A stretch of 64,000 bases of DNA. Source: Pedococcus sp. 5OH_020. Lineage in GTDB: Bacteria; Actinomycetota; Actinomycetes; Actinomycetales; Dermatophilaceae. Positions 7,085 to 9,436 of this stretch are shown one piece after another (within the stretch, counting starts at the first letter, position 1; each line of letters opens with the position of its first letter). The stretch spans positions 124,001 through 188,000 of the forward strand of contig NZ_JAPYZV010000002.1 in NCBI RefSeq assembly GCF_027812955.1. Reading direction: 5' to 3'. Both the position numbers and the translations under genes were made by a program. The notes beneath the pieces were generated by a model, which saw nothing but the letters and a program-made list of their open reading frames with translations, did no database searches and was not told the DNA's origin.

Positions 7085-7576
7085 TCAGGCTCGTGGGACG
7101 ACCAGGGCGGTCGCCACGGCGGCCAGCCCCTCGGCGCGCCCGGTGAGCCCGAGGCCGTCCGTCGTCGTACCGCTGACCGACACGGCAGCGCGGACGGCAG
7201 CCGCCATGACGCCCTCTGCCTCCCCCCGGCGGCCGCCGATCTTCGGCCGGTTGCCGACCACCTGTACCGCCACGTTGCCGATCTCGAACCCTGCCTGCCG
7301 GACCAGACGGGCCGCCTCTGTCAGAAGCTCCACCCCCGAGGCGCCGGCAAGCTCCGGCCGGCTGGTCCCGAAGTGCTCGCCCAGGTCACCGATTCCCGCG
7401 GCGGAGAAGAGCGCATCACACGCCGCATGGCACGCCACGTCGGCGTCCGAGTGGCCGTCAAGCCCGGCCTCGTCCGGCCACATCAGCCCTGCCACCCACA
7501 GCCGCCGGGCCGGGTCCGTCGTGAAGGCATGCACGTCGACCCCGATGCCCGTGCGAGGCATGCCGGTGAGGTCCAT
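7085..7576 (-). CDS. ispF: 2-C-methyl-D-erythritol 2,4-cyclodiphosphate synthase
   Basis: MEP-pathway enzyme that converts CDP-ME 2-phosphate to ME-cPP and CMP; homotrimeric, zinc-dependent. The metal-binding D-x-H is in GIGVDVHAF near residue 12. [20 protein letters not shown] and the downstream GDLGEHF region are the family core. The closing Thr/Gly segment [16 protein letters not shown] is typical. The reading frame extends upstream to about 8152, but only 158 to 163 residues belong to the family. I chose the ATG at 7576; the ATG at 7561 (MPRTGIG) is equally possible. ispD lies upstream on the same strand with the GNAT gene wedged between in the opposite direction, an unusual interruption of ispD-ispF. 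Confidence 0.93.
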
Positions 7577-7630
7577 GCCGCCATCCAACCACCGACCTCC
7601 CCTGCCCTGGCGACGCGCTAGCGTGCGGGG

Positions 7631-8233
7631 CTGACCGGCCTGCTCGACGTTCCACTGCTCAGCAGTCGGCTCGTCCTCCTCCGACCCCATCGCCGGGGCG
7701 ATCTCGACGCCGTCTACGAGCGGTGCCTCGACGCGGAGACCAGGCGGTACACGACCATCCCGCTGGAGTACACCCGTGGGATGGCCCGCGAGTATCTGGA
7801 GGGTCTGCTCCGGCCGTCCTCCACGTTCGCCTCCTGGGCGGTGGAGCTGGACGGTGCTTATGCCGGCACGATCGACCTGCGGGTCATGCCAGTGGACGCG
7901 GGTGCGGGTGACCTCGGCTTCGTCACCCACCCTGCCCTGCGCGGGCGGGGGGTCATGTCGCAGGCGGTCCGTCTGGTCCTGGGCCATGCCTTCGACACGC
8001 TCGGGTGGCAGCTCGTTCGATGGCAGGCCCACGCAGGCAACTGGGCCAGCGCGAAGACGGTATGGCGCAGCGGGTTCCCCATCCCCACGTTCGTGCCCGA
8101 CCTGCTCGTCGAGCGAGGGAGGATGGTCGACGGATGGCTGAGCACCCTTCACGCCGGCTGGCCCGGGAGCCGGGGACAGCCTGGGAGGACTGGGTGGAGG
8201 CCCTCAGCCCCGGGGGACCTCAGCCGTCAGTGA
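7631..8233 (+). CDS. GNAT-family N-acetyltransferase (probable CTG start)
   Basis: Acyl-CoA-dependent N-acetyltransferase of the RimJ/RimL type; substrate unknown. The start of the fold, [20 protein letters not shown], lies well upstream of the first ATG (7781). The acetyl-CoA loop is [20 protein letters not shown], and [14 protein letters not shown] is the usual last strand and helix. In this frame a stop sits at 7619-7621, and no ATG, GTG or TTG occurs before 7781. CTG at 7631 (or 7640) is therefore the only start that keeps the domain whole. The last residues and the stop lie inside a tandem array shared with the end of ispD. The alternatives are a sequencing error or a decaying gene. Confidence 0.7.
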
Positions 8234-8298
8234 CCTCAGCCCCGGGTGACCTCAGCCGTCGCTGACCTCGCCCGCGCTGACCTCAGCCCTGAGTGAGG
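8205..8298. repeat. Tandem array spanning the stops of the GNAT gene and ispD
   Basis: The word TGACCTCAGCC recurs about five times (with variants such as TGACCTCGCC), organised as two longer units of about 30 bp of the form CCTCAGCCCCGGG-n-GACCTCAGCCGTC. The GNAT stop (8231-8233) and the ispD stop (8283-8285) both lie inside the array, so repeat expansion has set the ends of both convergent genes. Confidence 0.75.
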
Positions 8299-8957
8299 TG
8301 ACGCTCCACCAGCGCCAGGTCGTCCGGGGTCGTGACCTTGAAGGCGAGGGCGTCGCCCGGCACCACGCGGACATGGCCGCCGGCTGCCTCCACGAGCGCG
8401 GCGTCGTCCGTGGCCTCGGCGCCGGAGGCATGAGCATGCTGAAGCACCTCGCGCAGGAAGGCCTGAGGAGTCTGGACTGCGCGCAGCGCAGCGCGGTCCG
8501 GGGTGGCCACGACGACCCCGTCAGCGTCCACCTGCTTGATGGTGTCTGTCACGGGCAGCCCCGGCACCACCGCCGGATGACCGGACCGCACCTCGTGCAC
8601 GAGCCGGGAGACCAGCTCCGCCGGGGCAAGCGCTCGTGCCGCGTCGTGCACCAGAACGATGCCGTCGTCCCTGCGAAGGGCCGCGAGCCCGGCCGCGACG
8701 GAGGCGCTGCGCTCAGACCCACCGGCCACCACGTCGACGTCGGCCGGTCGAGCACTTCGGGACGTGATCGCGCCCGCCTCCTCGAGGTGGGAGGCGGGCG
8801 CGACGATGACGACGTGCGAAACCTCGGAGGCCGTCAGCACTCGCCGCAGGGCGTGCTCGAGCAGGGTGGCGCCGCCGACCATCACGAACGCCTTGGGTTC
8901 AGCGGCTCCGAGCCTGCGTCCCTGTCCGCCCGCGACGAGGACGACAGCGACGCTCAG
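8283..8957 (-). CDS. ispD: 2-C-methyl-D-erythritol 4-phosphate cytidylyltransferase (probable CTG start)
   Basis: MEP-pathway enzyme that couples MEP to CTP. The nucleotide-binding loop [15 protein letters not shown] and the lysine of [10 protein letters not shown] are encoded upstream of the first ATG/GTG pair (around 8885). Later motifs are [23 protein letters not shown] and [10 protein letters not shown]. Between the previous gene and this loop the frame contains no ATG, GTG or TTG. A CTG at 8957-8955 overlaps the carD stop as CTGA, exactly where ATGA or GTGA is normally found. Starting there gives 224 aa, normal for IspD. The gene is almost certainly cotranslated with carD. Confidence 0.9.
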
Positions 8958-9436
8958 GAGGCGAGGACCTCGTCGAGAATGGCCTCGGCCTTGTCCTCGT
9001 TGGTCTTCTCAGCGAGCGCAAGCTCGGAGACGAGGATCTGGCGCGCCTTGGCGAGCATGCGCTTCTCCCCGGCGGAGAGCCCGCGGTCCTTGTCACGGCG
9101 CCACAGGTCACGGACGACCTCGGCTACCTTGATGACGTCGCCGGACGCGAGCTTCTCGAGGTTCGCCTTGTACCGGCGCGACCAGTTGGTGGGCTCCTCC
9201 GTGTGGGGGGCACGAAGAACGGAGAAGACCTTGTCCAGGCCATCCTGTCCGACGACGTCCCGCACGCCGATGTCCTCGCAGTTGTCTGCAGGGACCTCGA
9301 TCGTCAGATCACCCTGGGCGACCTTGAGCTTGAGGTAGATCTTCTCCTCACCCTTGATTGTGCGGGTGTTGATCTCTTCGATGAGTGCAGCCCCGTGGTG
9401 GGGGTACACGACCGTCTCGCCGACCTTGAAAACCAT
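8954..9436 (-). CDS. carD: CarD family RNA-polymerase-binding transcription regulator
   Basis: Essential-type actinobacterial regulator of 160 aa that binds the RNA polymerase beta lobe and stabilises open complexes, notably at rRNA promoters. The N-terminal Tudor-like RNAP-interaction domain begins [20 protein letters not shown]. The C-terminal helical DNA-binding domain contains [20 protein letters not shown], with the conserved tryptophan that wedges the upstream fork. Length and sequence are fully typical. It is the first gene of a carD-ispD operon, overlapping the ispD start by 3 bases. A TATTCT hexamer (complement of 9466-9471) about 30 bases before the ATG is a plausible -10 element. 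Confidence 0.95.

Follow-up and report, generated by a model that had tools for sequence, protein, structure and literature searches.

Organization of the locus

We analyzed a 64,000-nt stretch of DNA from Pedococcus sp. 5OH_020, hereafter called the window; the genome amounts to 4.43 Mb in 32 contigs, with 100% completeness and 0.15% contamination. At the locus of interest, a GNAT acetyltransferase frame on the plus strand (7631–8233) lies between its divergent neighbor ispF (7085–7576, minus strand, TIGR00151) and the convergent gene ispD (8283–8957, minus strand, as read from CTG). Upstream of ispD lies carD (8954–9436, minus strand), which ends in TCC TGA. The initial annotation had named both GNAT and ispD as candidates for a CTG start, and for ispD this was borne out: the CTG (8955–8957, minus strand) overlaps the carD stop codon TGA (8954–8956) as CTGA, and the GNAT CTG is 1.3 kb away. 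The predicted RNA structure was in no way unusual at the two starts (z = 0.18 and −1.40). The comparison set consisted of ten congeners and the window genome, that is, 11 genomes of the genus. The best named relatives, judged by ispD, were Phycicoccus sp. Soil748 and Root101 and Knoellia koreensis, which we take to be members of GTDB Pedococcus, family Dermatophilaceae.

The convergent junction between GNAT and ispD varied among these genomes. In the window, a 32-bp tandem array of three copies (8202–8296, without strand) occupies the 3′ ends of the two genes, and unrelated tandem arrays were seen at the junction in three genomes, namely, the window genome and those of loci L004 and L011. The array unit is 32 bp in the window, TGACCCGC in G010, and AGGCGTC in G006. 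At L010 (genome G005), the GNAT and ispD stop codons are approximately 1.28 kb apart, whereas this distance is −11 to 106 bases in each of the other ten, and something seems to have been inserted there.

Start region and tail of the GNAT gene

The GNAT frame of 200 codons, which is probably a damaged gene, belongs to PF13302 (Acetyltransf_3) by profile search, scoring 81.1 bits against a cut-off of 25.4, with the match spanning residues 15–149. As originally reported, it has no standard start codon in its first 50 or so codons: an in-frame TAG stop codon (7619–7621) is followed by no ATG, GTG, or TTG until the ATG at 7781–7783, and the CTG candidates between these points are at 7631, 7640, and 7655. 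This first ATG lies inside the domain and is not the start; its Met is kept in the six genomes aligned. The claim that homology extends upstream of the ATG was confirmed, but its limit, placed at approximately 7640, lies slightly farther upstream. Homology begins at approximately 7631, because the PF13302 score was 81.1 bits when the frame was read from 7631 versus 54.8 bits from 7781, and because codon 7631 aligns with the ATG of the orthologs. In GC-rich DNA, a stop-free frame is weak evidence when taken by itself, and it is conservation that counts.

GNAT orthologs occurred in all ten congeners, with identities of 59–76%, and all ten start with ATG. The window CTG (7631–7633) aligns with this ATG in six congeners; the other four carry a short N-terminal insertion, and their ATG is 9 or 21 nt farther upstream than the window CTG. 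GNAT was also found beside ispD in 3 of 19 further family loci (L293, L294, and L296, from two other genera), again always with ATG. CTG at the GNAT start was therefore confined to 1 of the 14 genes near ispD, and since all 13 orthologs near ispD have ATG, the change is private to the window genome. The genome holds no close GNAT paralog, the sole other match being 31% identical.

By eye, a TANNNT motif was recognized before the ATG of every one of these orthologs, at a distance of 8 nt in nine congeners, 7 nt in one, and 8 nt in L293, L294, and L296. In the window, the corresponding hexamer TAGCGT (7619–7624, plus strand), a candidate −10 box, is followed by 6 nt and then by CTG, as opposed to the 7–8 nt that precede ATG in the 13 orthologs. 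TANNNT at 7–8 nt before ATG is also the arrangement of leaderless genes in Mycobacterium and Corynebacterium, suggesting that the GNAT orthologs may have the layout of leaderless actinobacterial mRNAs. The window gene departs from it in having CTG in place of the ATG or GTG that a leaderless gene carries at its 5′ end, and CTG did not serve leaderless initiation in the assay described in PMC4633059, where CTG and TTG were ineffective initiators at the leaderless position in Mycobacterium smegmatis.

The C-terminal tail of the window GNAT appears to be altered as well. Congeners end with a motif of the type REPVAxWDEVxAAL, and tail identity to the reference was 0.38 for the window versus 0.50–1.00 in four other genomes. 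An apparent homolog of this motif (profile positions 8–21) was located at 8164–8205 on the plus strand, in frame 1 and outside the GNAT frame. As a blind search over all six frames of the window, the match is weak (domain E-value 1.6, sequence E-value 0.54) and ranks second behind an unrelated hit at 0.1; it sits at the expected place, for which the chance was estimated at approximately 1 in 1,000. The 32-bp tandem array begins at the site of the motif. The tail seems to have left its frame, which would be a second lesion.

The body of the gene shows no sign of relaxed selection relative to congeners, as judged by pN/pS and by invariant columns. Between the window and its congeners, pN/pS was 0.37–0.76 in the N-terminal part of GNAT (control pairs, 0.35–0.93) and 0.28–0.49 in the rest (control pairs, 0.25–0.48), and the window departs from otherwise invariant columns at 4 of 69 positions, compared with 0 to 5 in each of the other ten genomes. 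Of the features expected of a pseudogene, loss of the start codon relative to intact orthologs was found, as was, less firmly, loss of the frame in the tail; relaxed selection was absent, as would be expected if the damage were recent. The lack of decay in the body implies that the damage is recent, that the gene still works, or that the lesions are errors.

We favor, at somewhat better than even odds, the view that GNAT is a recently damaged gene, in which the ATG of a leaderless layout would have changed to CTG in the window genome and the tail would have fallen out of frame. Such a gene is most likely translated little or not at all and is probably silent. Alternatively, the gene may work from CTG 7631, the ATG having naturally switched to CTG at the very 5′ end of a leaderless mRNA or directly beside it. 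The frame is indeed open and aligned with congeners over approximately 178 codons, selection does not seem relaxed, the −10-like box is kept in such a way that the CTG would fall near +1, and the PF13302 match stops short of the altered tail. We nevertheless regard a working CTG as unlikely in view of the M. smegmatis assay, the 707 leaderless mRNAs of Corynebacterium glutamicum, all of which begin with AUG or GUG according to PMC3890552, the ATG kept in all 13 orthologs near ispD, and the apparent second lesion. Switches from an ancestral AUG start to CUG number 2 of 61,358 in PMC5622118.

The remaining explanation, that the start and tail are assembly base errors in a real gene with a standard start, is favored by two apparent lesions within approximately 600 bp of a normally constrained body and by their occurrence in one genome only. 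Poor local assembly quality was not supported by two coarse tests, however. Split-frame counts for the window were 6–10 per query genome, similar to the 4–11 of control pairs, in a test made coarse by shadow ORFs, and the window had the worst tail of its set for only three of 33 ORFs, namely, GNAT and ORFs 154 and 270. The assembly, moreover, is 100% complete and 0.15% contaminated, and errors at both sites appear improbable. The window GNAT, whose CTG is not conserved among relatives, does not qualify as a CTG-start gene on sequence alone.

The ispD start in the window and the genus

The enzyme encoded by ispD belongs to the MEP pathway and is presumably essential here. When read from the CTG at 8957 (minus strand), the window ispD scored 226.2 bits against TIGR00453 (cut-off, 181.3), covering profile positions 2–217 of 219, the nucleotide-binding loop at the N-terminus among them. 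No standard codon occurs in frame before GTG 8885, which lies inside the enzyme, and a start there would lose the loop. The CTGA overlapping the carD stop codon marks the beginning of ispD in every one of the 11 genomes of the genus, and no in-frame ATG, GTG, or TTG precedes the nucleotide-binding loop, with two GTG exceptions: one at +21 in four genomes, within the first conserved stretch, and one at −147 in a single genome, inside carD. The gene therefore has the properties required of a CTG start, namely, no standard in-frame start codon and a CTG whose phase is conserved among relatives, and these alignments indicate that the CTG is very probably the real start codon.

A search at an E-value of 1e−20 returned a single ispD match in 7 of the 11 genomes, with two matches in three congeners and a second domain in G000. 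This second IspD-like domain (G000:C11:466874-467539, L280) is part of a 602-aa open frame and is 31% identical; its best model is TIGR00453, at 172 bits, below the cut-off of 181.3.

ispD starts across the family and beyond

The family search covered 186 genomes, with hits in 178. From these, a non-random sample of 70 loci was taken, consisting of the 30 best hits and 40 picked down the list to cover genera, and by our own mapping of the loci, it represents 34 of the 52 genera that gave hits. Standard codons were counted between the upstream stop codon, reaching no more than 60 nt into carD, and the fifth codon of ispD. No standard start was present in 43 of the 70 loci, from 19 genera, and 38 of these 43 had CTGA in frame, as against an expectation of one-third (p = 1e−13); when only the first such locus of each genus was used, the count was 17 of 19 (p = 6e−7). 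Three of the 43 (L084, L095, and L099) have CTG at −21 instead, and the other two (L057 and L062) lack CTG as well as a standard start. A standard ATG, GTG, or TTG candidate was present in the remaining 27 loci, 12 of which also have an in-frame CTGA. The distance from the CTG to the conserved part of ispD varies from 0 to 54 nt among the family loci.

At L084, L095, and L099 (genera g17 and g50), no NTG candidate other than the CTG at −21 lies within the stretch that was counted, and the Terrabacter locus L124, probably from the same genome as L099, has CTG at −21 too. At both L057 and L062 (genus g30), ATC follows CTGAC, and ispD may perhaps start with this ATC.

Outside the family, 67 class-level loci were collected (27 best hits and 40 picked), of which 3 proved to be family members, leaving 64. 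Only 2 of the 64 (L216 and L262) have no standard start, both with an in-frame CTGA; where carD was not adjacent, this count allowed standard codons as far as 180 nt upstream and was therefore more generous than that within the family. Among the named loci (best 80 of 591), 13 have no standard start and 4 were left unclassified as carD was not adjacent. The named and family sets cannot be added together, since some loci are probably from the same genomes (L124/L099, L138/L108, and L127/L078). In a quick tree of 102 ispD proteins, in which 37 of 99 forks are open, 13 changes between the two start classes were counted over the 102 rows, the CTG class being defined as having no standard start and so taking in L057 and L062. 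These changes suggest that the CTG start arose or disappeared on several occasions. At L178 (Wenjunlia tyrosinilytica, presumably Streptomycetaceae), one of the four loci at which carD is not adjacent, a CTG is preceded seven bases upstream by AAGGA, and no ATG, GTG, or TTG is nearby; this is a possible CTG start of ispD away from carD.

The carD-ispD junction

A Shine-Dalgarno (SD)-like GAGGT (8967–8971, minus strand) lies 9 nt before the ispD CTG in the window, and the same spacing was found in all 38 family loci with an in-frame CTGA and no standard start. The position and phase of the CTG, its overlap with the carD stop codon, and the SD-like element are established by comparison of the aligned sequences. 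Conservation of GAGGT and TCC TGA is by itself no proof of start use, because both are also dictated by the CarD sequence and occur where ispD starts elsewhere. Of 71 distinct family loci, 70 have a carD that terminates in TCC TGA, and 195 of 319 internal TCN codons are TCC. As to selection on the CTG through the carD wobble base, TCC prevails outside the family too.

The last carD codon outside the family showed a pattern of its own: the ratio of TCC to other TCN was 56:4 before TGA versus 17:11 before TAA or TAG, in rows that are related and not independent. TCC is commoner before TGA, as if GTGA or ATGA were avoided.

Translational coupling from carD to ispD is likely from this arrangement. 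Ribosomes translating carD would reach its TCC TGA end, with GAGGT 9 nt before the CTG, and either the ribosome finishing CarD or a new 30S subunit drawn by GAGGT would initiate at the overlapping CUG (CUGA), presumably with initiator tRNA. The junction resembles the NTGA (−4) pairs of termination-reinitiation, in which the stop and first codons overlap and an SD-like element lies inside the upstream gene (PMC12548453, PMC6728339); both features are present at carD/ispD, and NTGA is given as the commonest spacing of coupled overlapping pairs in PMC12548453. It differs from the NTGA pairs described there in its first codon, which is CTG rather than ATG, GTG, or TTG. Term counts gave no instance of CTG or CTGA in the main text of PMC6728339 and none of CUG in PMC12548453. 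A CTG behind an SD-like element has been proven by mutation for SAerR of Rhodobacter capsulatus, although, as described in PMC6199135, that codon is an internal start producing a short isoform, does not overlap an upstream stop codon, and is not the sole start of a metabolic enzyme. Counting against a CTG start of ispD is the finding in M. smegmatis that CTG was not enriched even behind an SD sequence, at 0.03% (PMC4633059). A conserved CTG start of ispD was not found as a subject in the open-licence literature, judged by the titles and abstract openings of the matches listed.

One could also imagine that ispD has no start of its own and is expressed as a CarD-IspD fusion by a −1 frameshift at the carD stop codon, since such a shift at TCC TGA yields the same phase as CTGA. 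For the same reason, the count of 38 in-frame loci among 43 separates neither possibility from the other. The carD stop codon has no slippery heptamer, however, and the 27 of 70 family loci with an in-frame ATG, GTG, or TTG candidate include 15 out of phase with CTGA; L084, L095, and L099, with CTG at −21, are likewise out of phase with a fusion. A fusion is accordingly very improbable, and we retain the CTG as the ispD start.

Survey of start codons

The initial annotation had suggested either local base errors or a real tolerance of CTG starts, for both genes alike. The genes proved to differ. The ispD CTG recurs in all 11 genomes and is thus not an error or a local feature, whereas the GNAT CTG, found in one genome together with a tail apparently out of frame, points to damage or base errors rather than to tolerance. 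A general tolerance found no support: no third clear case emerged in a sampled survey of starts, in which half of the compared window ORFs gave no sharp start.

The survey aligned 38 window ORFs with three to five congeners. Synteny ends at approximately 45 kb and ORFs past it were lost, some of the 38 are probably antisense shadows, and 9 others (taken for shadows, cut, or short) were omitted. A sharply bounded column of standard starts was present in 19 of the 38, and GNAT alone among these had CTG in the window. The other 19, including ispD, had no sharp standard start column. Automatic start calls proved to be partly wrong. Among the latter 19, ORFs 367, 268, and 270 have a CTG column at the edge of conservation and were not counted as CTG starts, because in none is CTG present in all genomes. 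Three congeners were also compared over 195 kb, where they share 57 genes; 3 of these had no standard column, and 5 were flagged. In three of the five flagged genes, a conserved Met start stands at the edge, one is a non-orthologous ABC transporter, and one is ispD, so that ispD alone of the 57 credibly combines a conserved start with the lack of a standard codon. With no third case among the genes surveyed, general CTG tolerance was not supported, and the proximity of the two CTG candidates appears fortuitous, one being an old feature and the other a new lesion.

Implications

Taken together, we consider it likely, with a probability of roughly two in three, that the two CTG cases are unrelated: GNAT has lost its start codon, and CTG is the true start of ispD. 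A gene in the course of losing its start, as GNAT probably is, is nothing out of the ordinary. The ispD half is the interesting one, a conserved start of a rare kind; few bacterial start codons are rarer than CTG. For annotation, a gene finder limited to ATG, GTG, and TTG would cut 24 residues, together with the nucleotide-binding loop, from ispD.

As a tentative proposal that we consider less likely than not, the family may keep CUG as the normal ispD start because a weak restart codon at the carD stop fixes a low IspD:CarD ratio, with TCC TGA held against GUGA or AUGA and with some members using other rare starts (the shifted CTG of L084, L095, and L099, and perhaps the ATC of L057 and L062). 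If this were true, the initiation machinery may be far more tolerant of CUG than its M. smegmatis counterpart, provided that an SD sequence and a terminating ribosome are present. Independently of this proposal, the occurrence of the ispD CTG across many genera provides a natural test of how CUG acceptance depends on SD strength, stop-codon overlap, and initiation factor 3.
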